A DNA stretch of 64,000 nt, taken from the NCBI GenBank assembly GCA_019455045.1, contig JACFND010000004.1:1-64000 (forward strand), written 5' to 3'. The DNA is from Flavobacteriia bacterium. GTDB taxonomy: Bacteria > Bacteroidota > Bacteroidia > Flavobacteriales > Weeksellaceae. The notes beneath the pieces are model-generated. The model saw only the letters and a list, made by a program, of their open reading frames with translations, was not told where the DNA came from and searched no databases. Position 1 is the stretch's first letter. Each line of letters begins with the position of its first letter. This document shows, one piece after another, positions 1-17,469 of this stretch. A program made the translations under genes and the position numbers.

Positions 1-34
1 ACAGCTAAACGAACTTTTTGATTTTGGGTGTTAA

Positions 35-211
35 TTTGCGGAAGTCAGGAAAAACATTTACCTGATAAGTAATACCGGAGAAGTTCTTTTAAAATCTGAA
101 GTTGATAAAAAAGAAATAATATTAGACTTATCTCTATTTAAAAACGATCTTTATCAAATTACATTAGTTGATAAAAAAGGGCGTGTTTTTAACAATTCTT
201 ACACTAAATGA
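35..211 (+). pseudogene. Remnant of a T9SS type A sorting tail
   Basis: After an in-frame TAA at 32-34, this frame reads through about 58 residues (...NIYLISNTGEVLLKSEV...GRVFNNSYTK) to TGA at 209-211. The pattern of an 'IYLISNTGEVL' strand followed by a hydrophobic 'LYQITLVDKKG' strand is that of a type IX secretion C-terminal sorting domain. No start codon or 'PNP' motif is visible upstream, so this is either the last piece of a gene beginning before the window and broken by the stop, or a decayed copy. A base-calling error near the contig edge would look the same. Confidence 0.45.
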
Positions 212-225
212 AAGCCTTTTTCCAT

Positions 226-233
226 TACATTTG
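226..233 (+). promoter_or_regulatory. -7 promoter element TACATTTG
   Basis: TACATTTG matches the Bacteroidota -7 consensus TAnnTTTG and lies 22 bases before the ATG at 256. No TTG sits at the expected -33 distance, so only half the promoter is supported. Confidence 0.4.
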
Positions 234-255
234 TGCAATATCATAAATTATCGCA

Positions 256-1196: not shown

Positions 1197-1239
1197 GCAC
1201 ATTAAAAAGAACATAAATATTTACATATCAGAAAATTAC

Positions 1240-3060
1240 TTACAAACCTATTATCTTCTTATTTACACCCTTTTTAGAATATGTTACCGAATTTCCCTGA
1301 ACGCTTACATTTCCAACCGGGTTTATATATTTAGGCGACTCAATGGTAATAATTGAGGTAATGTTAGACTGTTTTGTTTCTAAATTTATTTGCTTGGTAT
1401 CTGTTTTCTTATTGGGAGACAAACTCCTGAAAAAGTCTTTTACGGCTACCTTGTCCCCTCCATTTAATGATTGAATCGTTAATGAAATTTGATTGGGAAA
1501 AGATGCTTTAGCTAAATTACCATTTACCGAAATATCCGTTGCATTTTCTCCCAAATTAAATATTTGAGTTAAGGATTTTGTTAAATTGACATTATCGCTG
1601 TTATCTTGTACTATAATTACGTTCGGATGGATATAGATTATTTTTCTCCTTAAAAGAATACCGTCATAAAAATTGTGTTCAGCTTCCACTATCTCATAAT
1701 CTTCTTCTCTCGTATAACTGATAAGTTTAGAAAATTTATCCTTGCCATCAAGTGAATAATCTGAATTATTGACCACCACCGTATTATGTGCCAAAGCGGA
1801 TATTAACTGAGGGCGATAGGTTTGGTCATAGGCATAATACCCCTGATCTGTAAAAATATCGGTGCCGAGCGTTTGAAAGATGAAAGATAAATCATCGTTA
1901 TGTTTATGAACTTTGGAATAATAGTTCGCAAAAAGACATAAATAACCCTTGTCGGGTGTATTGGTTCTCAAAGTGGCTATGTTGTTCTCAAAACTTACCA
2001 TAGAAGGAAGAGAATAATTTTTTGTAAGGTCCCGAAGCCGCTTGTCGTTCCCGAATTTTTCTATCATTTCCTGGTTGACCATTTCTATCTGGCTGTCTCC
2101 CCACAATGGAAATTTCAGATCCGGTTTTACCAATTGCAAAAGAATATCATTCATCCTCAAATATTTTACCATCATAGAAGGGTCTATGTTTTCTTTTCCA
2201 ATAAGGTCAAAAATGGATTTGTAAAGATTATAATTAAAAATATGATACGTGGTTGAGTGCTCTCTGGCTAATCCCGTTGGGCCAATAATCTTGTTAAAAT
2301 TATCCAGTGACCTTGTAGCTGCTAAATTCCGCAAAGAATTTGACAAATCTGCATTGGATTTTGTGATTTTCGCAAGATAAAGTAAAGTACGATCCATCAT
2401 AATAGCATGATTATGTACCGAATAGTGAGCCGGATCTGTCATAAAAATGACATTGAGAGAAATATGGTCAAATGCCCTTTTAATAAAATCAACATCAGGA
2501 ACATCAAGCTCCAGCTCATCAGCAATTGTTTGCAGAACATGGAGGGTCCTGAATGCTGTTGCATGATCGTACCAGGTATATTCTGATGTTTTTTGATCCA
2601 AAGAAGGATGGTGAGAAATATAGTTATTCACATATTTTTTTGCCTGCTCATGATAGGCAATATCCTTTGTATCCTGATAAGTGTGGTTTAAAAAAGACAC
2701 AAACAATAAATTTTCATAGTAAAGCTGCCAGGTTGTATTATTTTCAGGATTTTCTTTCCATGTTATTTCATCCAAAGGTTTGTAAAAAGGCTTAAAAGTA
2801 TGCAGTACCACAATAGAATCTTTAAGAATTTTATCTGAATACCCTTTGATCTGTTCCAGTGAAAAATTGGGTACGGTTCGGGGAATTTCAATAAATTTTA
2901 TTGACTTACTGATTTCTAAAAGATTGACTGAATATTTCACAGAATCATTTAAGGAAATGTTGACTGCAGTTTCTTTTAACAATTTTTCTTTCTTTTCCTG
3001 AGGAGAGGCACATGAAGCAATCAAAAGAACCAATAAGGTTATAAAATAACTGTTTCTCAT
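1240..3060 (-). CDS. Heparinase II/III family lipoprotein
   Basis: A 606-residue polysaccharide-lyase-like protein. I chose the start at 3060 because it gives a lipoprotein signal (MRNSYFITLLVLLIASC, Cys17); the frame stays open 35 codons further upstream without a signal. The N-terminal half is an alpha-helical toroid with NHAIMMDRTLLYLA; the C-terminal half has the heparinase II/III beta-sandwich signatures KVHKHNDDLSF and LAHNTVVVNNSDYS. The family cleaves uronic-acid-containing polysaccharides by beta-elimination. It lies beside, and transcribed away from, a surface-polysaccharide operon; I infer a role in trimming or turnover of that polymer, although some relatives feed on environmental glycans. 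It is AT-rich like its neighbours. Confidence 0.8.
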   Translation of the reverse strand: MRNSYFITLLVLLIASCASPQEKKEKLLKETAVNISLNDSVKYSVNLLEISKSIKFIEIPRTVPNFSLEQIKGYSDKILKDSIVVLHTFKPFYKPLDEITWKENPENNTTWQLYYENLLFVSFLNHTYQDTKDIAYHEQAKKYVNNYISHHPSLDQKTSEYTWYDHATAFRTLHVLQTIADELELDVPDVDFIKRAFDHISLNVIFMTDPAHYSVHNHAIMMDRTLLYLAKITKSNADLSNSLRNLAATRSLDNFNKIIGPTGLAREHSTTYHIFNYNLYKSIFDLIGKENIDPSMMVKYLRMNDILLQLVKPDLKFPLWGDSQIEMVNQEMIEKFGNDKRLRDLTKNYSLPSMVSFENNIATLRTNTPDKGYLCLFANYYSKVHKHNDDLSFIFQTLGTDIFTDQGYYAYDQTYRPQLISALAHNTVVVNNSDYSLDGKDKFSKLISYTREEDYEIVEAEHNFYDGILLRRKIIYIHPNVIIVQDNSDNVNLTKSLTQIFNLGENATDISVNGNLAKASFPNQISLTIQSLNGGDKVAVKDFFRSLSPNKKTDTKQINLETKQSNITSIITIESPKYINPVGNVSVQGNSVTYSKKGVNKKIIGL

Positions 3061-3085
3061 AATGGTATATTTACGTTTGTAAAAA

Positions 3086-3093
3086 CAAATATA
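3086..3093 (-). promoter_or_regulatory. -7 promoter element of the heparinase-like gene
   Basis: The minus strand reads TATATTTG, a match to TAnnTTTG, 25 bases upstream of the ATG at 3060. This supports the start at 3060 rather than the longer frame, whose start would lie upstream of the promoter. No -33 TTG at proper spacing. Confidence 0.4.
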
Positions 3094-3185
3094 TAGATAG
3101 TAACATCTAATCAGTAAAATTTTAATCAAACATTTCAGATTCTCTATTTTAAAGGATTGAAGCAATATTTCAAAATGAAAAGCAT

Positions 3186-3193
3186 TACTTTTG
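3186..3193 (+). promoter_or_regulatory. Candidate promoter of the polysaccharide operon
   Basis: TACTTTTG fits the -7 consensus, with a TTG at 3157-3159 (26-base spacer, slightly longer than the usual 17-23). It precedes the first gene of the plus-strand polysaccharide operon by 65 bases. Confidence 0.4.
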
Positions 3194-3258
3194 TGAAATT
3201 TAATTCTTTTCTGATAAACAGATAAAAAATTTACTTTTAATATTAAGACTTTTACGTT

Positions 3259-4371
3259 TTGAAACTTTTTGTTCAGATAATATTGGTTATACTTTTTCTT
3301 CTGCAGGGAACGAATACCTATAATGCGTATGTTATCTTTTTACTTTTGCTGTTGTTGGCAACAAATATTTCAATTAAATCAATTAAATTCAAGTTGCCGA
3401 ATTATTACACAATTGCAGTTCTTATTTATTTATTTTATTTGGGAATCGGACTGAGTTACAACCATATAAAACCAACGATTGATATAAAGTTCCAAATCTT
3501 TTCGTTTATCTTTTACTTTTGGCTATTAAACCAGCGTTATAAGATTGATTTTCTTAAGCTCTTATTCATCATAAATATAATTGTATTCATTATTTACATA
3601 CTCCTCAAGGTAAAATTATTGCCAAGTCTCTGGAGTGAAAATGCGTTCGGGTTTAAAGGACGTATATACGGACCGGCCATTACCGCATTCATTCTTATAG
3701 GCTTTTATTATTTATACAGAGGGCTAAAGTTTGACTGGAAATTTGGAGTTTCGGCTGCACTGGCGCTATCCTATATTGCAATTACTACTAATTTTATGAA
3801 TTTAGGAATAGCTGTAGGTATGATTCTTTTGGTAATCATTAATTTCAAAAGATTCTTCAACCCTATTTATTTTTCAGTAATCGGTATTTTGATTGTCTGC
3901 GGAATAGTCTATTTACAATCATCTCTAGTTCCGGAATTGGTTCAAACCAAATTGAAATATGTATTCAGGCCTTGGGAATACAGCAGTTTAAGAATCAGAA
4001 TTTCAGATTTGCAAAAAGCCTTTAGAAGCGAAAATTTTACAACGTTGGAAAATATATTTGGCAAAGGGTTTGGTGCAAGCACCAGAATTTTTAGAGATAA
4101 TAAAATTGCTGTGAGTTTCAGAGGTTATTATACCTTTCAGGAAATTGACAATGGATTTTATTATATATTTCACAGAGGCGGAGTTTCTTTAATGACAATT
4201 TTTTTGTTATCTCATGCCTATCTGACATATAGAATTCCAAATTTGAAAGCCAAGCTTGGATTTATTTTAATGTTTATCATGACCAACCTTCTTTCTATTC
4301 ACTATTTCAACTATTTCTTTTATCTGCTGATTCCATTTGTAATTTTAACAAAAGATAATCAAGAGAAATGA
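3259..4371 (+). CDS. Polysaccharide polymerase-like membrane protein (Wzy/O-antigen polymerase type)
   Basis: A 370-residue integral membrane protein with about ten hydrophobic segments and one large soluble loop (about residues 225-300, FRPWEYSSLRIRISDL...) between late helices, the layout of Wzy-type polymerases. Sequence conservation in this family is weak, so the call rests on topology and context. Translation must start at TTG 3259: an in-frame stop lies at 3244-3246 and the next in-frame Met is far inside. The final codons overlap the following glycosyltransferase by four bases (ATGA), so the two are translationally coupled. Likely role: joining oligosaccharide repeat units on undecaprenyl diphosphate at the outer face of the inner membrane. 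Confidence 0.6.
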   Translation: MKLFVQIILVILFLLQGTNTYNAYVIFLLLLLLATNISIKSIKFKLPNYYTIAVLIYLFYLGIGLSYNHIKPTIDIKFQIFSFIFYFWLLNQRYKIDFLKLLFIINIIVFIIYILLKVKLLPSLWSENAFGFKGRIYGPAITAFILIGFYYLYRGLKFDWKFGVSAALALSYIAITTNFMNLGIAVGMILLVIINFKRFFNPIYFSVIGILIVCGIVYLQSSLVPELVQTKLKYVFRPWEYSSLRIRISDLQKAFRSENFTTLENIFGKGFGASTRIFRDNKIAVSFRGYYTFQEIDNGFYYIFHRGGVSLMTIFLLSHAYLTYRIPNLKAKLGFILMFIMTNLLSIHYFNYFFYLLIPFVILTKDNQEK

Positions 4372-5369
4372 AAAACCTTCTTTACATAGTTCCCAATATT
4401 GAAAGGATTAATGGCGGACCGGTTTCCAGAATTACAGATTTTAAAAAGGAATTTAATTCTAATGGAGATTTGATAATATCAAATAATAAGATATCAAAGG
4501 CTCTCGCAACAAAAAAACTGAATGTGGTGTATGTTGAGTCAGCAACCAATCGGATTGGCTTTGATGATTTGATTGCGCTGTTAATATTGAAGATAAAATC
4601 CAAAAAATTAATCGTTTTTATCAGAGATATTTATATAGAATTATTTCCTGAAGAATACAAAGGCCCCAGAAAATCAATTACCAGATATTGCAATCAGTTC
4701 AGTAACTATTTTCTCACCTTAATATCATCAAAACTTGCTTTCCCAACCTATGAGATGGGAAAGTTTTTTTTTGAAAAAAACAAATATCATCCTAAAAGAG
4801 AATTTTTTGAATTGCCGCCTGCAACAGATTCCGGTGCCATATTTCAATATGAAATAAGTACGGATACAAAGCCCGGAATCTTATATCTGGGAGGTACACA
4901 CTACGTAAATTCAGGTTTTGAAAAATTTATTGAATATGCTGAACTGTACTCAGAAAGTTATAACTTCTTTGTGCTGACACCCGATACGGACTTGAACAAT
5001 AGGTATAAAATTCCAAAAGAACTGTTTGTTTCAAGTTTGAAAAGAAATCAGATCCCGGATTTTCTAAAAGAAAATAACGTTGCAGTTGCATTTCACACCA
5101 GACCGCGAAATTTTTATGATGACATTACTTTTCCAATTAAAGTAATGGATTTTATTAATTTTGGACTTCCTTTTCTGACAGAAAGACATAAACCGATGGA
5201 AAATCTTATGGGAAAAGATTATAATTTATTTGTTGATTGGGAGGATGCTGAAAGTGTAATGAAAAAAACAAATGACGCAACCATTCACAGAAAAGTGTAT
5301 CTTAAAAAATTGGAACGCACTGCAGAAGAAAACACATACAAAAAAAGGTTTGATGAAATTATTAAATAA
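4368..5369 (+). CDS. Glycosyltransferase, GT-B fold (GT4-like)
   Basis: A 333-residue soluble protein. The N-terminus MKNLLYIVPNIERINGGPVSR is the donor/acceptor-binding opening of GT-B enzymes with a Gly-Gly loop; the C-terminal Rossmann half carries GILYLGG and VMDFINFGLPFLTERHKP, the region that binds the nucleotide sugar in group-1 transferases. Substrate cannot be told. It overlaps the polymerase gene upstream by four bases and the next membrane-protein gene by 17 bases. It probably adds one sugar to the lipid-linked repeat unit on the cytoplasmic face of the inner membrane. Confidence 0.65.
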   Translation: MKNLLYIVPNIERINGGPVSRITDFKKEFNSNGDLIISNNKISKALATKKLNVVYVESATNRIGFDDLIALLILKIKSKKLIVFIRDIYIELFPEEYKGPRKSITRYCNQFSNYFLTLISSKLAFPTYEMGKFFFEKNKYHPKREFFELPPATDSGAIFQYEISTDTKPGILYLGGTHYVNSGFEKFIEYAELYSESYNFFVLTPDTDLNNRYKIPKELFVSSLKRNQIPDFLKENNVAVAFHTRPRNFYDDITFPIKVMDFINFGLPFLTERHKPMENLMGKDYNLFVDWEDAESVMKKTNDATIHRKVYLKKLERTAEENTYKKRFDEIIK

Positions 5370-6555
5370 TAATAGATTTTTTGAGCTCAGCCTGGCATTA
5401 TTTGCATTTACGCTTCTCATGTGGAACAACATCAACACATTGGCTGTTTATCCGGTGATAATTGCATGGGTTCTGAAAAATAATTGGAAAGAAAAGTTTT
5501 TTCTTCTGAAACAAAATCTGACAGCATTTCTCCTAATGACTGCCCTATTCCTGCTTTTCTTCTCAAACTTTTGGTTCATTGATGATAAATCAGCTGCAAT
5601 CGATCTTTCTGTCAAAGCAAGTCCGTTGATTTTGTTTCCGCTGATTCTTTTCAGCACCTCAATTAAAGATTATAAAATAAGCAATATTTTTTCGGCAATG
5701 ATTGCCGGAACGGTTGTTACAATCCTTATTTGCTGGATAAGGATAATCTGGGATATTCTGTCAAAAAAGAATCCGTTGGATCAGGCGGGGTATTTCTTTG
5801 AATGGATTTATACGGATTTTAATTTGCTAAAGCCTTTCAATACGCATCCGAGCTATGTTGGAATTTTGGTTGTCCTGTTAATTATAATTCTGATGAAGTA
5901 TAAGGGGTTTGAAGAATTTAGAAAAGAAAAAGTGCTGTATCGTACACTTCTATTTGTTCAAGCGTTTTTTATCCTTCAGACAAACAGCAGAATCTCGTTA
6001 TTATGTCTTTTTTTATTTCTGACCTATCATTTTATTTCCAGATTTACCAGAAAATCAATTTTTCAATATTTGGCGGTATTGGTTGTTCTTGCACTCAGCA
6101 TTTTAAAGTTTGATTATTTGAGCAACAAACTAACATCAATTCTTACCCCCGAAGGTGATGTAATCCTGGATAGATATCCAAGATGGATTGCAATCATAAA
6201 AGAAAATGATTTATTGGGTAATTTTTGGATAGGCAGCGGAAAAGAAGACGCTCAGTTTATATATAACGAAGCCTATTTCAAAGGAGGATTTAATCAGGCA
6301 TTAACAGAACATTACAATGCTCATAATCAATATCTCGACTTTTTTGTTTCAAATGGAATTGTTGGACTTCTCGCTTTTTTAGCTGTTTTATTCTTCTTCT
6401 TTTTGAAAACCGGAAAAAGTTTAATCGCTCAAGCCTTTATTCTGATTTTTTCTCTTTTTGCAATGACTGAATCTTATTTTGGAAGAAGCGCAGGTTTGTT
6501 AATGTTTGGTTTTCTTTATTCAATCATGTTCGTTAATTTTAAAACTGAGGACTAA
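5353..6555 (+). CDS. O-antigen ligase/polymerase family membrane protein
   Basis: A 400-residue membrane protein with about eleven hydrophobic helices. I place the start at ATG 5353 (MKLLNNNRFFELSLALFAF), inside the end of the previous gene; the open frame begins earlier but its extra residues are hydrophilic. The periplasmic loop followed by HNQYLDFFVSNGIVGLLAFL is the classic Wzy_C / WaaL signature (H-N-x-x-L...G-x-x-G-L). It is the second polymerase/ligase-type protein in this operon: one of the two probably polymerises repeat units and the other transfers the chain to an acceptor, but the sequence does not show which. Confidence 0.75.
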   Translation: MKLLNNNRFFELSLALFAFTLLMWNNINTLAVYPVIIAWVLKNNWKEKFFLLKQNLTAFLLMTALFLLFFSNFWFIDDKSAAIDLSVKASPLILFPLILFSTSIKDYKISNIFSAMIAGTVVTILICWIRIIWDILSKKNPLDQAGYFFEWIYTDFNLLKPFNTHPSYVGILVVLLIIILMKYKGFEEFRKEKVLYRTLLFVQAFFILQTNSRISLLCLFLFLTYHFISRFTRKSIFQYLAVLVVLALSILKFDYLSNKLTSILTPEGDVILDRYPRWIAIIKENDLLGNFWIGSGKEDAQFIYNEAYFKGGFNQALTEHYNAHNQYLDFFVSNGIVGLLAFLAVLFFFFLKTGKSLIAQAFILIFSLFAMTESYFGRSAGLLMFGFLYSIMFVNFKTED

Positions 6556-7686
6556 ATGAAACTTGCCATTATTACACCCCGATACCCAAAAGAAAATGAT
6601 CCCTATAATCATATGTTTGTTCATGTCAGGGCAAAATATTTTAAAGAGCTGGGAAATGAAGTCGTAATCTTTGTTCCATCATCAAAAAGAAATTCATACA
6701 GCTACGAGGGTGTTGATGTGAAACTAATGTCAAATCAAGAAATTATAAAAGAATTTGATCGTTTTGATTTGCTTTATTTGCATTTGCTGAATAATTATTT
6801 TGGAAGTAAAAGTGGCTGTTATCCGATTTACAATGATATACGAAAAAACAAAAGAACATTTGCCATTTTTATTCACGGATCTGAGATTATGAAGTATCCT
6901 GATTATTTATTTGATTTTTCATTTTCACCAAGAGGTATTCTCAAATATATTTATTTAAATTTCTGGAACTCTGCAAAAATGAGAAGCTTCATAAATGACG
7001 CAAACAAAAGACAAAATGCTGCTTTTATTTTTCCTTCTAATTGGATGAAAGAACACACTGAATCAATTTTGAAATTAAAACTAAAAAATTCTAATATCAT
7101 TCCAAATGGAATTGACACAGATTTATTTAAGTTTTTAGATTCATATGAAAACAGGCATAAACTATTGATGATAAGACCCCTGACGGATTTAAAATATGGA
7201 TTTGATATTGCAATTGAGATTGTTAAACACCTTCCCTCAGAATTTAAACTAACTATATACGGAAAGGGGAAATACGAAAATTACTGCAGAAACCTTATTG
7301 ACAGATATGGGCTGAATGAAAGAGTTGTGATAATTAATAAATATATTGACAGGTACGAAATTCCAAATACTTTTAAGAAATATGGAGGATTCATTGCAAC
7401 TACACGGTTTGATTCACAGGGTGTAATTATGTGTGAGGCAATGGCCTCGGGTTTGCTTACAGTAAGCAATGGCGTGACTGCAATACCTGAATTTATAAAA
7501 GATGGTAAAAATGGAATCCTTGCAAATTCACCAAAAGAAATAGCAGATAAAATCACAGAGGTTGTTTCTAATCCTGAAAAATACAGGACGATTATTGAAA
7601 ATGCAAGAAGAAAAATGGAAGATATCAGCATTGAAAAAGTAGGAAAAAAAGAGCTTAAAGTACTGTCTAATTTAATCGAAATCTAA
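6556..7686 (+). CDS. Glycosyltransferase family 4 protein
   Basis: A 376-residue GT-B retaining glycosyltransferase. The N-terminus MKLAIITPRYPKENDPYNHMFV and the C-terminal motif CEAMASGLLTVSNG..AIPEFIKDGKNG (the E-x7-E region that contacts the nucleotide-sugar donor) are diagnostic of GT4. Its ATG directly follows the stop of the preceding gene, and its own stop shares one base with the next ATG (TAATG), so the operon is tightly packed. It is expected to add a sugar to the growing repeat unit; donor and linkage are unknown. Confidence 0.85.
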   Translation: MKLAIITPRYPKENDPYNHMFVHVRAKYFKELGNEVVIFVPSSKRNSYSYEGVDVKLMSNQEIIKEFDRFDLLYLHLLNNYFGSKSGCYPIYNDIRKNKRTFAIFIHGSEIMKYPDYLFDFSFSPRGILKYIYLNFWNSAKMRSFINDANKRQNAAFIFPSNWMKEHTESILKLKLKNSNIIPNGIDTDLFKFLDSYENRHKLLMIRPLTDLKYGFDIAIEIVKHLPSEFKLTIYGKGKYENYCRNLIDRYGLNERVVIINKYIDRYEIPNTFKKYGGFIATTRFDSQGVIMCEAMASGLLTVSNGVTAIPEFIKDGKNGILANSPKEIADKITEVVSNPEKYRTIIENARRKMEDISIEKVGKKELKVLSNLIEI

Positions 7687-9518
7687 TGTGCGGAATCCTT
7701 GGATCAGTTAATATAAATTTTTCTGAAGATGTTCTGAACCTTATAAAACACAGAGGCCCAGACTTCTCTCAGATTTGCAACTATAAATTGGGTGATAATA
7801 AAGTTCTTTTTGGGCACAGAAGGCTGTCAATTGTAGATCTTACTGCGGCAGGCAATCAGCCGATGGAAACCAAAGATGGAAACTATTCAATAATACTCAA
7901 TGGTGAAATATACAATCATGAGGATTTAAGAAAAACAATAAATGATATTAATTTCAAAGGTCACTCTGATACAGAAACCATTCTTAATTATATAGCCAAA
8001 AACGGTATTCAATCTGTAAAAGACTTCAATGGGATTTTTGCATTTTGCTTTCTGGATAAACAAGAGCAGAAAATTTATCTTGTTCGAGATCCGTTTGGTG
8101 TCAAACCGGTTTATTATTACAAATCAGATAACGGATTCTTATTCTCTTCTGAAATCAGACCAATAAAAAGTCTGATTGATACCTCTTTGGATAAAGATTC
8201 TCTATCAGAGCTTTTAAAACTGAGATTCAATCCGTCTGACGACACACTTTATATGGAGATAAAAAAATTACTGCCCGGACACTGTTTAACGTATGATATA
8301 AAAAAAAACAGTATTGAACTAAAACCCTTATTGGTATCTCAGCCAAATAAAAAAGAATTTAGTTTTAATCAGGCAGTAAATCAATACGGTGATCTGTTTG
8401 AGAAAGCTGTCAAACGTCAATTGATGTCTGATGTGGAATTGGGTGTACTTCTGAGTGGCGGTATCGACTCGGCACTTGTCACCTATTTTGCAGTCAGAAA
8501 CTCTGCTACCAAGATCAAATCTTTTACCGTCGGATTCGATAATAAAGATGAATCAAACGAACTTGATGATGCACGCGAATCGGCATCGATACTTAATACA
8601 TTGCATCACGAGATTGTAATCGGTCAAAATGATTTTATTAATGCATTTGAAAAAATAGTCCAAATCGTTGAAGAACCTTTGGGGACAACTTCATCAATAC
8701 CAATGTACTATTTGAACCAAAAGGTGTCAAAACACGTTAAAGTTGTTTTAACCGGGCAGGGGGCAGATGAGCCATTGGGTGGGTATCCGAGGTATAGATC
8801 GGAGATAATTCGAAACAACTTTCCAAATTTTGTTCTTGAAGGATTAAAACCATTTTCCTCATTTTTTAAAAATGAAAAGATTAGAAGATTTTTATACTCG
8901 TCCTATGAAACCGATTTGGTTAAACGTTTTGAGAAAACATATTCACTTTTTACCGAGGAGGATATTTATAAATTAACAGGCACAAATGATTCCAGAAGCA
9001 GAAAAAGGATTAATTACTTTTGCCAACTGCTCAATGTAAATAAATTGACAGCAGCAGAAGCAATGATGGCAGTTGATCTCAGGATGAATCTGGCAGATGA
9101 CCTTTTGCTGTACACTGACAAAATTTCAATGAATTTTGCAATAGAAACCAGGGTTCCTATACTTGATCTCGAACTTGTTGAATTTATACAGTCACTTCCA
9201 TTAAAATATAAAATCAATAATGGCAATGGAAAATTTATTCATAAAGAATTTGCCAAATCTGTATTGCCTGAAAAGATAGTGAAAAGAAAAAAGAAGGGTT
9301 TTCTTTCGCCAACAAAAGAATGGTTTAATCAGGGCTTGAGCAATTTAATTTATTCAGCTGTAAATGATGATTATACTCAGTTCAATCGCCTCTTTGATAA
9401 GGACGAAGTAATGAAAGTGCTTGAAAAACACAAAAAAGGATACAATCAGGAAAAACAATTGTTTTTGTTATTGTCAATTTACTTCTGGCTAAAAAACAAC
9501 CGGAATCAAATATTCTGA
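7686..9518 (+). CDS. asnB: Asparagine synthase (glutamine-hydrolysing) family amidotransferase
   Basis: A 610-residue two-domain enzyme. Cys2 of MCGILG is the glutaminase nucleophile of the class II (Ntn) amidotransferase domain (about 1-190); RHGPD-like KHRGPD and NGEIYN follow. The synthetase half (from about 230) has the PP-loop LLSGGIDSALV that binds ATP. The family makes asparagine, but members inside polysaccharide loci are known to amidate uronic-acid carboxyls. Because it sits between two glycosyltransferase genes with one-base spacing on either side, I infer that it modifies a sugar acid in the repeat unit; housekeeping asparagine synthesis cannot be excluded. Confidence 0.85.
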   Translation: MCGILGSVNINFSEDVLNLIKHRGPDFSQICNYKLGDNKVLFGHRRLSIVDLTAAGNQPMETKDGNYSIILNGEIYNHEDLRKTINDINFKGHSDTETILNYIAKNGIQSVKDFNGIFAFCFLDKQEQKIYLVRDPFGVKPVYYYKSDNGFLFSSEIRPIKSLIDTSLDKDSLSELLKLRFNPSDDTLYMEIKKLLPGHCLTYDIKKNSIELKPLLVSQPNKKEFSFNQAVNQYGDLFEKAVKRQLMSDVELGVLLSGGIDSALVTYFAVRNSATKIKSFTVGFDNKDESNELDDARESASILNTLHHEIVIGQNDFINAFEKIVQIVEEPLGTTSSIPMYYLNQKVSKHVKVVLTGQGADEPLGGYPRYRSEIIRNNFPNFVLEGLKPFSSFFKNEKIRRFLYSSYETDLVKRFEKTYSLFTEEDIYKLTGTNDSRSRKRINYFCQLLNVNKLTAAEAMMAVDLRMNLADDLLLYTDKISMNFAIETRVPILDLELVEFIQSLPLKYKINNGNGKFIHKEFAKSVLPEKIVKRKKKGFLSPTKEWFNQGLSNLIYSAVNDDYTQFNRLFDKDEVMKVLEKHKKGYNQEKQLFLLLSIYFWLKNNRNQIF

Positions 9519-9519
9519 A

Positions 9520-10269
9520 ATGGAGAAATGTAGAATTGAAATATTAAATACTTTTTATGACAATCACTCAATGAAAGAAACCATAGAGCTTGTTAGAAAT
9601 GGAATCGAAAATAAAAAACAGATTCATCATACGGTGATAAATGCCAATAAGATTGTTTTATTACAAAAAGACAATGAACTCAGAGAAAGTGTTAATTCAG
9701 CCGATTTGATAAATATTGACGGCAAAGGAGTGTTATGGGCTGCTAAAATTTTGGGTAAACCCGTTAAAGAACGTGTAACAGGAATCGACTTAATGATGGA
9801 ATGTCTGAAATTATGTCAGGAAAATGGATATAAAGCTTATTTCTTTGGTACAAAAGAAGAGACCCTTCTAAAATTAATTGACAACATTACAAAGGACTTT
9901 GGTGGGAATATAATAGCCGGATATAGAAATGGTTATTACCAACCTGAAGAGGAAAGTATTATAGTTGAAGAAATTCGAAAGGCCAAACCTCAAATTTTAT
10001 TTGTTGCAATTCCTTCGCCTAAAAAAGAAAACTTTTTATTCAGAAATAAAAACGAACTTAAAGATGTGAATTTTATAATGGGTGTAGGAGGGAGTTTTGA
10101 TGTAATTGCAGGCAAGGTAAGAAGAGCTCCTTCTTGGATGCAAAAGGTGGGTTTGGAATGGTTCTTTAGATTAATCCAGGAACCCAAAAAGATGTGGAAA
10201 AGATATTTGATAGGAAATCTAATTTTTGCCCGAATAGTTATTAAGCATAGATTTAGTGCTGAAAATTAA
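9520..10269 (+). CDS. WecG/TagA/CpsF family glycosyltransferase (GT26)
   Basis: A 249-residue GT26 enzyme. Signatures: VINANKIV, DGKGVLWAAK, the Rossmann-like YFFGTKEET, and the C-terminal block GVGGSFDVIAGKVRRAPSWM followed by GLEWFFRLIQEP. Characterised members transfer N-acetylmannosamine or N-acetylmannosaminuronic acid to an undecaprenyl-linked sugar on the inner-membrane face, usually as the second step after the initiating transferase. That initiating enzyme is encoded next, three bases downstream. Together with the AsnB-like gene this suggests a ManNAc(A)-containing, possibly amidated repeat unit (inference). Confidence 0.88.
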   Translation: MEKCRIEILNTFYDNHSMKETIELVRNGIENKKQIHHTVINANKIVLLQKDNELRESVNSADLINIDGKGVLWAAKILGKPVKERVTGIDLMMECLKLCQENGYKAYFFGTKEETLLKLIDNITKDFGGNIIAGYRNGYYQPEEESIIVEEIRKAKPQILFVAIPSPKKENFLFRNKNELKDVNFIMGVGGSFDVIAGKVRRAPSWMQKVGLEWFFRLIQEPKKMWKRYLIGNLIFARIVIKHRFSAEN

Positions 10270-10272
10270 ACC

Positions 10273-11682
10273 ATGAACTACGGTAATAAACAAAATATAT
10301 TTCTGATAATTGTTCAGCTTCTGGCTGACATTCTCTTGTTGTGTTTATTGTTCTTTATTTTTCTGTTTATTCACAATCCGGGAATTGACAAAACAATGGA
10401 AAATATGGGAAACCTTATCAACTCCCATTATAAAGCATTAATCCTAATCATTTTTTCCTGGCTTCTTATTTCAAATTCCACTAAAATTTATTTCAGTTTC
10501 CTTTCTGACCGGTTTATTGATTTTTTCAGGAAATTTTTCTTTCAAATTTTCCTTTTCGGAATAATCTTATTTGCTGTTTCAGGTCTGAAATCAGAAGATT
10601 TATTTACTAATACTGAGACGGTTTATTTCATCTTGTTACTATTTATTATCGACTTCATATATAAACTGCTTTTATTTTACTTGATTAAATACTTGATAAA
10701 AATTGGGAAAATCGTAAAGGAAAGAATACTGATTATTGGAGAGAACTCAAATACTGAATTATTTAGAAAAATAATTACTGATAACCCTGAGTACGGCATC
10801 GTAATAGAAGAGCATTTGATTTTGACCGCTGAACAATTTGAAACAGGAGACTTTGCAGATAATCTTATCAAACAGATTCGTAAAAATAAAATTGATACCT
10901 TTTATATTTGTGAGGGCAGCAACCTTAATAAACCCAATACAGAAAAAATTTTAAAAATAGCTGAAGATAATTTTCTAAAAGTAAAATTTATTTTTGACTC
11001 AGCCTTAGAAAACATAAGTACGATGGATGTTTTATTTATAGAAACTTTCCCTGTCTTTACATATAATAAACTTCCCCTCGAAAATTTAATCAACCGATTT
11101 ATTAAAAGATCATTTGATATCATTTTTTCTATTACTATTTTCGTAATATTCCTCTGGTGGCTCCTGCCAATTCTTTCCATCGCGGTTTTCTTCTCTCAGG
11201 GCCGTCCTATCTTTTATACCCAAAAACGAAACGGACTCAACGGAAGAGAGTTTAACTGTCTCAAATTCAGAACCATGCGCCCCGATAAATTCAATGATAA
11301 AAAACCAACCGAAAGAGACGACCCCAGAGTAACCAGACTCGGACGAATCCTTCGTAAAACGAGTTTGGACGAATTGCCTCAATTCTTTAATGTCCTGAAA
11401 GGCGAAATGTCAATCGTCGGCCCGAGACCGCACATGGTTTCAGAAAATGAGTCGTATGCAGAGATTATCAAAAAATATTCGCTCCGTCATTATGTGAAAC
11501 CCGGAATCACCGGACTGGCACAGATCAGAGGTTACAGAGGAGCAATCGATTCTGAAAAAGATATGGAACTCCGGGTGAGGACAGATATTTATTATGTCAG
11601 AAACTGGTCTTTCCTGCTCGATCTGCTGATTATCTACAAAACCGTCAGACTGGTTCTTGCCGGCGACGAAAACGCAATCTGA
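10273..11682 (+). CDS. Undecaprenyl-phosphate sugar-1-phosphate transferase (initiating transferase)
   Basis: A 469-residue polyprenyl-phosphate hexose-1-phosphate transferase of the WbaP/WcaJ type. Four N-terminal membrane helices (to about 135), a cytoplasmic CoA-binding-like domain with RILIIGENSN (about 150), then a re-entrant helix and the catalytic bacterial sugar transferase domain with KRSFDII, CLKFRTM, RLGRILRKTSLDELPQ (catalytic Asp-Glu) and VGPRP. It starts assembly of the repeat unit by transferring sugar-1-phosphate to undecaprenyl phosphate. Last gene of the operon. Odd: the first 295 codons are AT-rich like the rest of the locus, whereas the catalytic domain has the composition of the following housekeeping genes. 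Confidence 0.9.
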   Translation: MNYGNKQNIFLIIVQLLADILLLCLLFFIFLFIHNPGIDKTMENMGNLINSHYKALILIIFSWLLISNSTKIYFSFLSDRFIDFFRKFFFQIFLFGIILFAVSGLKSEDLFTNTETVYFILLLFIIDFIYKLLLFYLIKYLIKIGKIVKERILIIGENSNTELFRKIITDNPEYGIVIEEHLILTAEQFETGDFADNLIKQIRKNKIDTFYICEGSNLNKPNTEKILKIAEDNFLKVKFIFDSALENISTMDVLFIETFPVFTYNKLPLENLINRFIKRSFDIIFSITIFVIFLWWLLPILSIAVFFSQGRPIFYTQKRNGLNGREFNCLKFRTMRPDKFNDKKPTERDDPRVTRLGRILRKTSLDELPQFFNVLKGEMSIVGPRPHMVSENESYAEIIKKYSLRHYVKPGITGLAQIRGYRGAIDSEKDMELRVRTDIYYVRNWSFLLDLLIIYKTVRLVLAGDENAI

Positions 11683-11771: not shown

Positions 11772-11963
11772 TTACCAGCCTTTGTATTCTTTGTCTTCTT
11801 TGTTTCCGAAGCTTGCCAGTTTGTACAGCCACCATCCGATCAGACCGAAACCGACAATAAACAGTATCCAGTCAAATGAATGTGCAATCGGCTCCAAAAG
11901 ATTTTCAAATGTCCAGAGGAAGAAATGTCCGAGTCCAAACCAAATATCTGTAAGTATTCCCAT
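11772..11963 (-). CDS. Small conserved-type membrane protein, function unknown
   Basis: A 63-residue protein (MGILTDIWFGLGHFFLW...) with an amphipathic aromatic N-terminus, one strong membrane helix (WILFIVGFGLIGWWLYKLA, about residues 32-50) and a short charged tail ending EDKEYKGW. It resembles the small proteins that flavobacteria encode in this chromosomal neighbourhood, but I cannot assign a function. Reality is supported by its own -7 promoter element upstream and a good terminator downstream. It is divergent from the membrane protein gene at 11997. Confidence 0.65.
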   Translation of the reverse strand: MGILTDIWFGLGHFFLWTFENLLEPIAHSFDWILFIVGFGLIGWWLYKLASFGNKEDKEYKGW

Positions 11964-11991
11964 ATCTTTGTTGCTTTAAGCGACAAAGTTA
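11963..11991. promoter_or_regulatory. Overlapping divergent promoters in an inverted repeat
   Basis: The plus strand carries TATCTTTG at 11963-11970 and the minus strand TAACTTTG (plus 11984-11991), both fitting TAnnTTTG. They form the arms of an imperfect inverted repeat (CTTTGTTGC / GCGACAAAG, one mismatch). The plus element serves the gene at 11997, the minus element the small gene ending at 11963. The arrangement implies that the two transcripts compete for one site. Confidence 0.5.
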
Positions 11992-11996
11992 AAAAA

Positions 11997-12938
11997 ATGT
12001 TGGTAAAGATACTTTCGCAAAAATCATTTTTGTTACAATTTTTTCTCGGAGCCTTGTTTTTAGCTTTGTTTTTTCTCAGTTTACAACCCGTCCGCACCGA
12101 TCTGTACAGCATTTCAGCAATTTTGCAGCTGCTCCTGACGGCTGTCGTCTGTCTGCTATTTTATAACTATTCTAATTTAGTCAAATCTGCCGGTTTCGGT
12201 CTCTGGTTCTATCTGATCTGGGTACTGATGTTTTCAAAGATCACCGCCGATCTGCCGATGACCGCTTCACTTCTGTTCTGTTCAATGATTTTTTGGAGAT
12301 GGATTTCTGCTGCCAATCCGGGAGAAAACCGAAAGATTATGTTTGAAAGCGGTTTTCTTTTGGCTGTTTCGGCTTTGTTCTTTCCACCGTCGATTTTTCT
12401 GATCGTCTTTGTACTGGTCGCCTATTTTTATACCCAGACGCTGAATCTGAGAGGCATGCTGCTGCTGATCATCGGACTTTCACTGCCGGTTCTGATAGCA
12501 ACTCAGATTCTTTATCTCACCGGACATTTTGATCTGATCGATCATTATTTTGAATCCTTTTATCTGAATTTTTGGAATGTTCCGGTCTGGACACTGATTC
12601 CTGTCGGGCTGCTTATCCTGATCAGTTGGATGGACCATCTGACTAAATTTGCCACCCAGAATATTTACAAAAGACATAAATATTTTCTGATCTTTATTTA
12701 TTTTGTCAATTGGATGATCATACTGGCTCTGTACGGTGGAAATGAAGTGTATTCACTGATGTTTCTCGGCTTTCCGATTTCAATTTTTTTAAGTCGTTTT
12801 GTACAGTATGCTTCATCTGCCGGAAAAAAAGAATTCTGGCTTTGGATATTTGCGATTTTTGGAATGATCTATATTTTCGAGGCTGAATTGATTCAGCTTT
12901 ACAACAGCATTTTAGGCGATATCTCTTTCCAGTTTTAG
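11997..12938 (+). CDS. Multipass membrane protein, DUF6427-like
   Basis: A 313-residue protein with about nine hydrophobic segments (MLVKILSQKSFLLQFFLGALF...). The frame is open from 11880, but I place the start at ATG 11997: the upstream residues are hydrophilic and overlap the divergent promoter. Length, topology and position next to a sugar transferase resemble the flavobacterial DUF6427 family; no catalytic motif is evident. The last 27 bases overlap the end of the convergent LpxH-like gene. Possible roles in envelope biology are only inferred from the neighbours. Confidence 0.65.
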   Translation: MLVKILSQKSFLLQFFLGALFLALFFLSLQPVRTDLYSISAILQLLLTAVVCLLFYNYSNLVKSAGFGLWFYLIWVLMFSKITADLPMTASLLFCSMIFWRWISAANPGENRKIMFESGFLLAVSALFFPPSIFLIVFVLVAYFYTQTLNLRGMLLLIIGLSLPVLIATQILYLTGHFDLIDHYFESFYLNFWNVPVWTLIPVGLLILISWMDHLTKFATQNIYKRHKYFLIFIYFVNWMIILALYGGNEVYSLMFLGFPISIFLSRFVQYASSAGKKEFWLWIFAIFGMIYIFEAELIQLYNSILGDISFQF

Positions 12939-13697
12939 ATTTTCACCGTCAAAAACCGCATAGGTGAAGTGCCCCACCCAGTCGCCGAGATTCACATATT
13001 TTGAATTTTTACCCAGCTCAATCTGCATCGGCAGATGACGATGACCAAACAGGAAATAGTCAAAATGCTCCATTTCGAGTTTTTTGAGTGAATAAATCGC
13101 AAGCCATTCTTGGTCTTCTCCAAGGAATTTCACATCCTCGGCTCCCGAAATCAGTTTGTTTTTTCTTGAAGTTGTAATGCCTAACCAAACCGCAAAATCG
13201 GGATGAAGCAAATAAAAAAGAAACTGTGCAATTTTGTTGGTAAACACTTTCTTCATCCGTTTGTAACCTTTGTCGCCCGGTCCCAAACCGTCACCGTGTG
13301 CAATAAAAAATCTGGTTTTGTTGATTACAAATGTCTTTCTGTCTCTGAAAATCGTCGCATTGATTTCTTTTTCGAGATAATCTCTCATCCACAAATCATG
13401 ATTTCCGGTCCAAAAATAAATCTGAATTCCCGAATCCGAAAGTTCGGCAAGTTTTCCGAGTACCCTCACAAAACCTCTGGGCACCACCTGTCTGTATTCA
13501 AACCAAAAATCAAACAGATCACCCAAAAGAAACAGATACTGACAGTCTGATTTGATCTCGTCGAGCCAGCGTACAAAACGTTTTTCACGGATTCTGCTTT
13601 CAAAATCATCGGGTGCACCGAAATGCTGATCCGATGCAAAATAGGCCCTCTTTCCCTCTTTCAGCTTTAATTCTATCTGTTGTCCTCCGCCTGCCAT
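12912..13697 (-). CDS. lpxH: UDP-2,3-diacylglucosamine diphosphatase (LpxH-like metallophosphatase)
   Basis: A 261-residue calcineurin-like phosphoesterase. Metal-binding motifs in order: SDQHFG (Asp23, His25), GDLFDFW, GNHDLW, HGDG and GHRH. LpxH removes UMP from UDP-2,3-diacylglucosamine in lipid A synthesis, at the cytoplasmic membrane surface. The DxH...GDLFDFW...GNHD...GHRH arrangement and length agree with the family, though some relatives are generic UDP-sugar diphosphatases. The start at 13697 lies inside the end of the queD gene (25-base overlap), so the two are co-transcribed. The 3' end overlaps the convergent membrane protein gene. Confidence 0.8.
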   Translation of the reverse strand: MAGGGQQIELKLKEGKRAYFASDQHFGAPDDFESRIREKRFVRWLDEIKSDCQYLFLLGDLFDFWFEYRQVVPRGFVRVLGKLAELSDSGIQIYFWTGNHDLWMRDYLEKEINATIFRDRKTFVINKTRFFIAHGDGLGPGDKGYKRMKKVFTNKIAQFLFYLLHPDFAVWLGITTSRKNKLISGAEDVKFLGEDQEWLAIYSLKKLEMEHFDYFLFGHRHLPMQIELGKNSKYVNLGDWVGHFTYAVFDGENLKLERDIA

Positions 13698-14125
13698 TCT
13701 GCATAAGATGTTTCGGTTTCGTGCAGTCTCACGGATTGCAGCGCTACTTCAGGATTCAGTTTCGAACGAATCAGATTCACCATATCGATCAGCATATTTT
13801 CACAGCTTGGCTGATAATCTGTAAAGATCACTTTGTGCCCTTCGGCAATCAGTTTTTCGCCCAATTCTTTGTGGGGTGAATTCACATTCAGCAGTATCGA
13901 ATGATCAAATTTGTCAACCACTTCCGATCTTACAATTTTTTTGATATCACCAAAATCAATCACCATTCCGAATTTCGGGCTGTTTGAATCCGAATTCGGA
14001 GTTCCGATGACGGTAACAAACAGTTTGTAGGAGTGACCGTGAATATTTTTGCACTTGCCGTCATAGCCGTAAAGTGCATGTGCGGTTTCAAAATTAAAAG
14101 ACTTGGTGACCCTTATTTTATTCAT
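13673..14125 (-). CDS. queD: 6-carboxy-5,6,7,8-tetrahydropterin synthase
   Basis: A 150-residue enzyme of the tunneling-fold superfamily. FETAHALYGYDGKCKNIHGHSY holds the zinc ligands His16, His29 and His31 and the catalytic Cys25; later DHSILLN and the C-terminal HETETSYAEW complete the active site. QueD converts 7,8-dihydroneopterin triphosphate to 6-carboxytetrahydropterin, the second step to queuosine for tRNA modification; a 6-pyruvoyl-tetrahydropterin synthase role is possible but the Cys-x3-His-Gly-His pattern fits QueD. First gene of a two-gene unit with lpxH and divergent from comF. Confidence 0.9.
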   Translation of the reverse strand: MNKIRVTKSFNFETAHALYGYDGKCKNIHGHSYKLFVTVIGTPNSDSNSPKFGMVIDFGDIKKIVRSEVVDKFDHSILLNVNSPHKELGEKLIAEGHKVIFTDYQPSCENMLIDMVNLIRSKLNPEVALQSVRLHETETSYAEWQAEDNR

Positions 14126-14150
14126 TATCTTTATAGGTGTGAACCAAATG

Positions 14151-14158
14151 CAAAGTTA
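14151..14158 (-). promoter_or_regulatory. -7 promoter element of queD-lpxH
   Basis: The minus strand reads TAACTTTG (TAnnTTTG), ending 26 bases before the queD start. The element abuts the ATG of comF on the other strand (14159), so the divergent genes share a 33-bp control region. Confidence 0.45.
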
Positions 14159-14833
14159 ATGGAAATCCTGTCAATCGGAAATTCGGTACTTAATTTATTT
14201 TTTCCAAGACGCTGTCTGAACTGCGATTCGGTGATTTCGTCTGACAATCCGCTTTGTGTCAGTTGTGCTGCAGAATTACCTTACACCCATTGGAATGCAG
14301 ACAAAAAGAATCAGGCTTACCGAAAACTCAAACCGCTTTGTACCGTCAGTTTTGCACACAGTCTGCTGTTTTTCAAACATGACAATGTCACCCAGAAACT
14401 GCTTCACTTTCTAAAATATCACGGACATCTTTCAATCGGAAGACTGCTTGCAGACAAAACTTCTGAAACCGTCAATCTTTCTAATTTTGACGGAATCATT
14501 CCGGTTCCGGTTCATCCCAAAAAACTGAAGAAAAGAGGTTACAACCAGGTGATTCCTTATGCAGAAACTTTGGCAAAAAATGCAGGAATTCCGCTGATTA
14601 ATGATTTTCTGATTCGGGTTGAAAACAATCCGTCGCAGGTCCATAAAAACAGAGAAAAAAGACTGAATTCAATCAAAAACGCATTTGGTCTCAAACATGA
14701 AAAATTAAAAGGGAATTTTATACTGGTCGATGACGTACTGACCAGCGGTGCAACACTTTCGACCTGTGCCAATCTGATCGTTTCATCGACCGATTCAAAA
14801 ATTGCAGTAATGACCATCGCCTGTACCGTTTGA
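14159..14833 (+). CDS. ComF/GntX family phosphoribosyltransferase-like protein
   Basis: A 224-residue protein. The start at 14159 (MEILSIGNSVLNLFFPRRCLNC) is chosen because it puts the family's N-terminal zinc-finger (CLNC...LCVSC) near the beginning; the open frame extends upstream into queD antisense. IPVPVHPKKLKKRGYNQ and the PRPP-binding loop FILVDDVLTSGATLS are typical of ComF. In naturally competent bacteria ComF assists DNA uptake at the cytoplasmic side; in many others the role is not known. No competence partners are nearby. Confidence 0.88.
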   Translation: MEILSIGNSVLNLFFPRRCLNCDSVISSDNPLCVSCAAELPYTHWNADKKNQAYRKLKPLCTVSFAHSLLFFKHDNVTQKLLHFLKYHGHLSIGRLLADKTSETVNLSNFDGIIPVPVHPKKLKKRGYNQVIPYAETLAKNAGIPLINDFLIRVENNPSQVHKNREKRLNSIKNAFGLKHEKLKGNFILVDDVLTSGATLSTCANLIVSSTDSKIAVMTIACTV

Positions 14834-14877: not shown

Positions 14878-16104
14878 ATGAAACTGACAGGCCCGTTTTC
14901 ACAAATCCTGACGCTTTCGGGAATTCCACTCAAGGGAGCAGTCAAAGACGAACAGCTTGAAATCATTACCGACGGAGGCATTGTTACGGCTGACGGAAAA
15001 ATCATAAAAACCGGCTCTTTTGAGAAATTGAGAAATGAATTCCCAAATGCCGAAATCGAAGAAATCAAAGGAAAAAATGTGCTGCTTCCCGGATTTATCG
15101 ACAGCCATACCCATATCTGTTTTGGCGGAAAAAGAGCAAAGGATTTTGCAATGCGGCTCAACGGAAAAACTTATCTGGAAATAGCCGAAAGCGGCGGCGG
15201 AATCTGGAGTTCGGTGACCAATACCCGAAACGAAACCGAAGAACAACTGTTTCAATCGACATTTGAAAGAGCCGAAAGACTGATCAAAAACGGAATCACA
15301 ACCATCGAAATCAAAAGCGGTTACGGTCTGAGTCCGGAACATGAAATCAAAATACTGAAAGTCATCAATCGGGTTAAAGATCAATCAAAGGCGACCATCG
15401 TTCCGACATTTTTGGGCGCGCACATGAAACCGAGAGATTTTGAAGGAACCAATTTGGAGTATCTTCAGCTTTTAGTCAACGAAGTTTTCCCAATCATCAA
15501 ATCAGAAAATCTTGCAAAACGAATTGATATTTTTACAGAGAAATCAGCATTTTCAATCGAAGAAAGCAGAGCCTATCTTCAAAAAGCAAAAGAAAACGGT
15601 TTTGAAATTACGGTTCATGCCGATCAGTTTACGCCGGGCGCAAGTGTGATGGCGGTTGAATTTGGTGCAATGAGCGCAGATCATCTTGAATTTTCTGATG
15701 AAAATGATATCAGAGCACTTTCCGGCAGCGATACGGTGGCAACCGCGCTTCCGGGTGCATCCATCGGATTGGGCATGCAGTATGCGCCTGCCAGAAAACT
15801 GCTCGATTCGGGCGCCTGTCTTGCGATTGCATCCGACTGGAATCCGGGTTCAGCACCGATGGGCGATCTGCTCACCCAGGCTTCGATTTTGGCAACTTTT
15901 GAAAAACTGTCAATGGCTGAAGTCTTGTCGGGTATTACTTTCAGATCTGCAAAAGCATTGAATCTGACCGACAGAGGTGTATTGGAAATAGGAAAAAAAG
16001 CAGATTTTATAAGTTTTCCGACCGATGATTTCAGAGATATTATTTACAATCAGGGGCAATTGAAACCCAATCAAGTTTGGAAAAGAGGAGTTCAAATATC
16101 GTAA
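14878..16104 (+). CDS. hutI: Imidazolonepropionase
   Basis: A 408-residue amidohydrolase-superfamily enzyme. DSHTHICFGG holds metal-coordinating His77 and His79; GGGIWSSVTNTR binds substrate; later TVHADQ and DWNPGSAP supply further ligands and the catalytic aspartate. It hydrolyses 4-imidazolone-5-propionate to N-formimino-L-glutamate, the third step of histidine degradation. The length matches the family. The other hut genes (hutH, hutU, hutG/fdcA) are not in the window, so the pathway is scattered. It is 44 bases after comF on the same strand. Confidence 0.95.
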   Translation: MKLTGPFSQILTLSGIPLKGAVKDEQLEIITDGGIVTADGKIIKTGSFEKLRNEFPNAEIEEIKGKNVLLPGFIDSHTHICFGGKRAKDFAMRLNGKTYLEIAESGGGIWSSVTNTRNETEEQLFQSTFERAERLIKNGITTIEIKSGYGLSPEHEIKILKVINRVKDQSKATIVPTFLGAHMKPRDFEGTNLEYLQLLVNEVFPIIKSENLAKRIDIFTEKSAFSIEESRAYLQKAKENGFEITVHADQFTPGASVMAVEFGAMSADHLEFSDENDIRALSGSDTVATALPGASIGLGMQYAPARKLLDSGACLAIASDWNPGSAPMGDLLTQASILATFEKLSMAEVLSGITFRSAKALNLTDRGVLEIGKKADFISFPTDDFRDIIYNQGQLKPNQVWKRGVQIS

Positions 16105-16214
16105 TATTATAATTATTTGTTATTAGAATATCATAAAGATATAATAATTTGATAATGAAATAACAAACCATTATGTTTTTTGTGTGTTTTTAATTATATT
16201 CGCATAACAAAAGG

Positions 16215-17339
16215 ATGGGAATGATTAAAAGAATTCAACAGGAAAACATTAAAGAATCACTCTATAAGGGAAAGGCAGTCGTTTTATTTGGGGCTCGACA
16301 GGTTGGGAAATCTTCACTGATAAAAGAGCTGGTAAAACAGGAAAAATTTCTGTGGTTAAATGGTGACGAACCGGATGTTCCTCTGTTGTTGGACAATATA
16401 ACGTCTGATCGATTGAAAGCAATCACAGGAGAAAGTAAGCTGTTGGTAATTGATGAAGCGCAAATGATTCCCAATATCGGCTTATTGATAAAACGAATGG
16501 TTGATAATTTCCCTGAAATCCAAATTATAGCCACGGGAAGCAGTGCTTTTGAACTCGCAGACCGAACAAAAGAGTCAATGGTCGGAAGAAAGGAGGAATT
16601 TCAGTTATTTCCATTGTCTTTTTCTGAAATGGTAAAACACGGTGATTTTATTACAGAATCGCGTTTGGTGGCAAACCGACTGATTTATGGTTATTATCCG
16701 GAAGTGGTTACCAGTCCCGGCAAAGAAGAAAAAATTCTCAGAGACCTCACAGAAGGTTTTTTATACAAGGACATTCTAAATCTGGAAGGAATAAAAAAAT
16801 CTTCCACTTTACAACGTCTGGTTCAAATGCTTGCGTTTCGGGTCGGGAGCGAGATAAATTATTCGTCACTCGGAAATGATTTGGGAATCAGCCGATTGAC
16901 GGTAGAAAAACACATTGATATTTTGGAGAAAAACTTTATCGTTTTCAGGTTAAATACTTTCAGTAAAAATCAGGACAATGAATTGAAAAAAGGGCGAAAA
17001 GTTTATTTTTGGGATGTTGGACTGAGAAATCAAATTATCAAAAACTTTCGTCCGGTGGAATTTCGGGAAGACATTGGTGCACTATGGGAAAATTTCATCA
17101 TCAGCGAACGAAAAAAGAAACTCAGTTATGCTTCCGATTTCAGCGACACATATTTCTGGCGCAATACGCAACAGGCTGAAATTGATTACATCGAAGTCAA
17201 AAACAACGAAATCAGTGCTTACGAAATCAAATACAGCCCCAACCAAAAAGTGCGTTTTACCAAAAGCTTTGTGAATGCATATCAGCCAAAAATCACACAA
17301 GCCATTAATAATCAAAATTATTGGGAATTTTTACTGTAA
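16215..17339 (+). CDS. AAA-family ATPase with DUF4143 domain
   Basis: A 374-residue protein. The N-terminal AAA_14 domain has a Walker A GARQVGKSS (about 26-34), Walker B LLVIDEAQ and the sensor ATGSSAFEL; the C-terminal DUF4143 domain includes the helix-turn-helix-like SSLGNDLGISRLTVEKHIDILEKN and a PD-(D/E)XK-like end (EIDYIEVKNNEISAYEIKYS). The family is widespread, often strain-specific, and has no settled function. Two starts are possible, ATG 16215 or ATG 16221. It stands alone between AT-rich gaps on both sides, interrupting a housekeeping neighbourhood, which suggests acquisition as a single-gene unit. Confidence 0.88.
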   Translation: MGMIKRIQQENIKESLYKGKAVVLFGARQVGKSSLIKELVKQEKFLWLNGDEPDVPLLLDNITSDRLKAITGESKLLVIDEAQMIPNIGLLIKRMVDNFPEIQIIATGSSAFELADRTKESMVGRKEEFQLFPLSFSEMVKHGDFITESRLVANRLIYGYYPEVVTSPGKEEKILRDLTEGFLYKDILNLEGIKKSSTLQRLVQMLAFRVGSEINYSSLGNDLGISRLTVEKHIDILEKNFIVFRLNTFSKNQDNELKKGRKVYFWDVGLRNQIIKNFRPVEFREDIGALWENFIISERKKKLSYASDFSDTYFWRNTQQAEIDYIEVKNNEISAYEIKYSPNQKVRFTKSFVNAYQPKITQAINNQNYWEFLL

Positions 17340-17469
17340 GAAAAAGAAGCTTCCTTTATAATCGATCACACATCTTTAATGAATTTAAAATAAAGCAAAT
17401 CTAAGCGAAAGCCTGAAGCAGGACTCATGAAATAATCGCTCAAAATCATCATTATACGACATTTTTCAC

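Follow-up and report, generated by a model that had tools for sequence, protein, structure and literature searches.

The gene at 10273-11682 (plus strand) of the 64-kb stretch of DNA analysed here (the window) is the final gene of an AT-rich polysaccharide cassette and a mosaic boundary gene, in which the right flank on the chromosome and the C-terminal half have a common history, whereas the N-terminal half travels with the cassette. We estimate a probability of about 85% that this initiating sugar transferase is the right-edge boundary gene of an exchangeable cassette, exchanged by homologous recombination in or near the start of its catalytic domain. The initial annotation had seen in the composition of the gene the trace expected of homologous recombination within a conserved domain in an exchange of polysaccharide loci. 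Our results support this account, which came through the comparisons with trees and homologues described below, and the molecular route is the part that we infer.

We scanned the window for G+C breakpoints with a two-segment binomial model. The strongest breakpoint in all 64 kb was base 11151, in codon 293 of the transferase gene, with a G+C of 0.316 to the left and 0.411 to the right; the log-likelihood gain at this base was 177, against a maximum of 27.7 in 500 permutations of 300-base blocks. The same base was the best breakpoint in each sub-window tried, including the gene alone, and was also the position of the largest 2-kb/2-kb G+C step of the window (+0.116). Third-position G+C broke at codon 293 as well, rising from 0.304 to 0.494. 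A sharp composition junction inside this gene had been proposed from counts of 49 G+C in 180 bases (10981-11160) and 136 in 300 bases (11161-11460); both counts are exact, and the window-wide scan confirms the junction. The jump had been placed at about codon 295, at the start of the catalytic domain, which agrees with the breakpoint, but the PF02397 domain match begins slightly to the left, at residue 278. The description of an AT-rich left side and a housekeeping-like right side holds for the left locus (G+C of 0.29-0.35 per kb) and for the right side on average (about 0.41), but the latter has a dip at 16.0-17.5 kb. By itself the 180/300-base step is not exceptional, being matched at 782 of 63,520 positions (1.2%); the distinctive feature is that this short step coincides with a long-range change in G+C.

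Part of the step is ordinary for such genes. We compared the transferase with 80 full-length homologues from the same family, using one genome per species (G000 is the window's genome, G004 its sister species, and G001-G003 are other members of the genus). In these homologues the G+C of the C-terminal half exceeds that of the N-terminal half by 0.061 +/- 0.024 (third positions, 0.021 +/- 0.051; n=80), compared with 0.175 (third positions, 0.190) in the window's gene. Ordinary domain composition therefore accounts for about one third of the step within the gene. Only the sister species has a comparable step among the 80 homologues (0.154 and 0.191), so the same step is not a feature of distant homologues in general, as it would be if the initial annotation's reading were wrong. 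These figures bear on the explanation that no exchange took place and that the step results from a membrane half rich in AT, the conservation of the catalytic half and the fast evolution of the N-terminal half. Homologues in general do lean the same way, and their N-terminal halves are usually less conserved than their C-terminal halves (mean identities of 33% and 62%), but the third-position step in the window is 0.19 against a homologue mean of 0.02. We regard this explanation as improbable, and further evidence against it is given with the trees, the cassettes and the chromosomal site below.

The transferase is an initiating polyprenyl-phosphate sugar-1-phosphate transferase of 469 aa, belonging to the large monotopic phosphoglycosyl transferases. 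It matches PF02397 at residues 278-462 (E 2.7e-65) and passes the full-length model TIGR03025 (353 bits; cut-off 295.6), and the solved WbaP structure aligns with it from residue 252 on. The Asp-Glu dyad, D366-E367, is invariant in two alignments, so that the PF02397 core and dyad of the large monotopic class are both present, as are the N-terminal four-helix bundle and accessory domain of that class, the latter two according to TIGR03025 and an AlphaFold2 model (mean pLDDT 82.6). The model has helices at 3-34, 42-70, 81-105 and 113-143, an alpha/beta domain at 150-240, a hairpin at 252-264 and a long helix at 272-309, followed by the catalytic core. It resembles the PglC and WbaP folds, and its best fold match in the PDB is WbaP (8t53), with a low global TM-score of 0.33. 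The same order of four-helix bundle, accessory domain, hairpin, re-entrant helix and catalytic core is known from WbaP and WcaJ (PMC10942596, PMC4361858); unlike in those proteins, the N-terminal half in the window is matched only weakly by sequence, and a Pfam profile search found no match to PF13727 in it at 1e-3. The score against the WcaJ equivalog TIGR03023 (undecaprenyl-phosphate glucose phosphotransferase) is 366 bits, below the cut-off of 410.75, and we therefore do not assign glucose specificity of the WcaJ type to this enzyme.

The two halves differ sharply in what they share with relatives at the same site. To the right of the transferase lie a DUF6427 gene (11880-12938, plus strand, start codon uncertain; PF19992), an LpxH-like metallophosphoesterase gene (12912-13697, minus strand; PF00149, with weak LpxH models below cut-off), a 6-pyruvoyl tetrahydropterin synthase/QueD-like gene (13673-14125, minus strand; TIGR00039/TIGR03367 below cut-off) and a ComF-like gene (14033-14833, plus strand; TIGR00201 below cut-off). 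The order of these five genes, transferase included, is kept in G001, G002, G004 and several genomes from the genera g21 and g28, which identifies the flanking genes by synteny as well. Related species retain the C-terminal half and the right flank at this site, while their cassettes and N-terminal halves differ. The C-terminal half of the window's protein (11151-11682) is 77-79% identical to those of G001, G002 and G004 alike; the N-terminal half (10273-11040), which comprises the four membrane helices and the Rossmann-like accessory domain, is 72-73% identical to that of G004 and 30-33% identical to those of G001-G003 (for G001, N 32% and C 79%). Pairs at this site in other genera behave similarly, with identities of 27% (N) and 92% (C) for G124-G112 and 20% and 84% for G066-G083. 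Every one of the 12 most discordant pairs out of 3240 includes a locus at this site. In most of the discordant pairs the identity step falls at window codons 249-281, and in two it falls at 301 and 310. The junction zone thus spans 11017-11202 (codons 249-310, mostly 249-281, with the G+C step at 11151), and the identity boundary lies slightly to the left of the G+C step: the former is mostly between the hairpin and the long helix, and the latter maps to the long helix itself.

Trees were built from codons 1-255 (N), from codon 281 to the end (C) and from the LpxH-like and QueD genes (flank). Two loci, L047 and L052 (in G003 and G098), were set aside after the distances were seen, leaving 13 site loci; the C-terminal halves of these two are far more divergent than their flanks, and the whole gene appears from its sequence to have been replaced there (2 of 16 loci), so the right end of an exchange would not always lie inside the gene. 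Separate phylogenies of the two halves had been suggested as a check, and in the 13 loci they do not give the same tree. The N data reject both the C tree (pAU 7e-6) and the flank tree (pAU 7e-4), and the C and flank data reject the N tree (pAU 0.004 and ~1e-69), while C and flank are compatible (pAU 0.068 and 0.218). When all 15 loci are kept, each partition is in conflict with both others. Within the window's genus plus g18 the N data do not reject the other trees (p 0.085 and 0.16), the N-half test being without power there, and the window's own case therefore stands on branch lengths and synteny. From G000 to G001 the path lengths are 0.44 for the flank, 0.37 for C and 2.64 for N; from G000 to G004 they are 0.21, 0.30 and 0.37. 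Such a variable N/C ratio speaks against a uniformly fast-evolving N-terminal half as the source of the step.

To the left of the seam, positions 1-11150 hold the right part of the cassette, as judged from its G+C, its gene families and the absence of counterparts at this site in G001-G003. The cassette genes in the window encode a leucine-rich-repeat protein with a T9SS tail, a heparinase II/III-like enzyme, a Wzy-like polymerase, glycosyltransferases, an asparagine synthase and a WecG/TagA type transferase. The first two of these (390-1196, and 1240-3165 on the opposite strand) are unusual cargo next to glycosyltransferases. The window begins at a contig end, and the cassette continues on another contig: contig C35 of the window's genome carries rmlD, and synteny with G001-G003 stops there at this gene (7669-8451, reversed coordinates) and a G+C breakpoint (0.414 to 0.352) lies at 8469, 18 bases past it. 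Both cassette edges are thus located, and we infer that C35 joins the window's contig. Contig C35 (L146) also carries UDP-GlcNAc 2-epimerase and UDP-sugar dehydrogenase genes with a G+C of 0.40-0.41 inside the AT-rich stretch, and this near-normal composition indicates that the cassette is itself mosaic.

In the window's genus the conserved block to the left terminates at rmlD, and in g21 it includes thymidine kinase. Between the conserved block and the transferase lie about 6-20 kb with few or no genes in common with other species (in some genomes the joined cassette maps lack as many as about 100 bases immediately upstream of the transferase, which makes the ORF lengths read from them for that gene approximate). 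Thymidine kinase normally lies on the left of the cassette in g21, but in G098 (L052 / L141) it directly adjoins the transferase, and this genome therefore has no cassette at the site. Among 41 pairs with similar flanks, which are not independent, N-half identity correlated with shared upstream DNA (rho 0.56) and less so with flank identity (0.27); that N-half identity tracks shared cassette genes is not what constraint on the protein would lead one to expect.

The step recurs at this chromosomal site. Of the 16 loci at the site, 8 have an in-gene rise in G+C as their best breakpoint within 5 kb, compared with 1 of 65 elsewhere (Fisher p 3e-6, relatedness ignored), the lone exception elsewhere having just 30 bases of upstream sequence. 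Four of the eight site loci are from other genera and carry other cassettes. Because site and non-site loci come largely from different genera, the contrast is partly one of lineage. The rise is nevertheless almost restricted to this site, and together with the third-position excess, the uneven N/C ratio and the correlation with the cassette, this led us to reject constraint alone as a sufficient cause of the step.

The exchange that produced the window's arrangement is not recent, since the sister species G004 shares the N-terminal half at 73% protein identity. It also shares two upstream genes, at 72-79% identity for these and the N-terminal half together, with strongly diverged synonymous sites. 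Given this age, neither side of the seam retains the near-identical sequence that would give a sharp breakpoint. When 320 genomes of the family and 396 of the order were searched for a donor of the N-terminal half, only the sister species was found at E <= 1e-38. Across nine genomes the third-position G+C of the cassette follows that of the host flank closely (r 0.91) and is below it in all nine, with a mean deficit of 0.06 and the largest, 0.128, in the window's genome. Low G+C looks like a standing property of these cassettes, the third-position deficit persisting despite an apparent adjustment to the host. The step marks the seam because the host flanks are richer in G+C than the cassette DNA. 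As they are so in all genomes compared, the step shows where the cassette ends, but tells neither when the exchange took place nor which donor was involved.

In the reading that we favour, conserved sequence at the edges would have allowed homologous recombination between an incoming cassette and the resident one, which would thereby have been replaced. The crossover on the right would fall where the conserved catalytic domain begins or close by, and the one on the left near rmlD, or near thymidine kinase in g21. WcaJ and WbaP remain active when reduced to their C-terminal part (PMC4361858). By analogy, the enzyme should still work after a crossover at the domain boundary, because its catalytic domain would not need one particular N-terminal half. 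A point that sits less well with this reading is that the G+C step and the identity step are tens of codons apart. Exchange of the cassette through a mobile element, a site-specific insertion or a gene fusion that happened to end here is a rival route, and the age of the exchanges prevents crossover tracts from being read directly (the C-terminal halves of different species are now only about 71-83% identical in DNA). However, we found neither direct repeats at the junction nor a tRNA gene within the first 20 kb, relatives keep an intact reading frame, and seams next to different cassettes lie near the same codons, so that we consider such a route unlikely. That sequences of two organisms were joined during assembly or binning, as is conceivable in a 108-contig draft genome, is rejected as extremely improbable, since one contig in the independent genome of the sister species crosses the junction, and its neighbouring genes and step there are as in the window.

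Boundaries of this kind are already known: wbaP contains the end of the divergence in Salmonella C2-C3 (PMC3715488), and the Salmonella galactose-initiated O-antigen clusters likewise run from rml genes through a variable block of low G+C to the initiating transferase as the final gene (PMC3715488). The present site has the corresponding features of a wbaP-type boundary gene: a variable block lies between conserved flanks at one chromosomal site, and the gene has two parts with different histories, the outer one tracking the flank (the two loci with whole-gene replacement set aside). It differs in that the Salmonella comparison concerns a divergence gradient within Salmonella (PMC3715488), whereas here species and genera of one Bacteroidota family are compared and the step is near the start of the catalytic domain; the right flank is gnd in the Salmonella wbaP clusters (PMC3715488) and DUF6427 with its neighbours here. 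The cps clusters of Elizabethkingia, a flavobacterial genus, are similarly Wzy-dependent, with a conserved and a highly variable part, and the portions of their descriptions consulted mention neither a mosaic transferase nor an in-gene edge (PMC4961963, PMC11552330). To these our results add a site found in a family of Bacteroidota, with a seam that lies close to a domain boundary and recurs across genera.

Both edges of an exchangeable surface-polysaccharide locus are thereby placed for this group, and the transferase C-terminal half, DUF6427 and the LpxH-like gene offer a fixed anchor for finding and typing such loci. An in-gene composition step, once the domain composition of homologues has been subtracted, can mark a recurrent recombination seam. 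The arrangement also predicts that cassettes at this site have the first repeat-unit sugar in common. The accessory domain of WbaP stabilises the dimer, and a regulatory role has been proposed for it (PMC10942596); by analogy, each cassette may bring its own regulatory N-terminal half. More speculatively, the seam might also be functional, with the chromosome holding a catalytic half that would fix the first sugar, cassettes bringing N-terminal halves matched to their own flippase, polymerase and glycosyltransferases, and the domain boundary serving as a standard docking point across genera. We consider this less likely than not.

Two observations concern the sister species G004. Within the range of the G+C dip on the right side of the window lies a 1.3-kb stretch at 16090-17430 with a G+C of about 0.35 and an AAA_14 and DUF4143 ATPase gene (16215-17339). 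This stretch is missing from G004, where its flanks are nearly contiguous, and from the sequences it would be either an insertion in the window's lineage or a loss in G004. The fragmented genome of G004 also contains a second transferase, L007 (on contig C320), which is truncated where the contig stops. We considered L007 as potential evidence of exchange within a species, but in the region where the two copies overlap they are only 76% identical in DNA, ruling out a strain variant of the first copy, and L007 is probably either a second locus or a contaminant.
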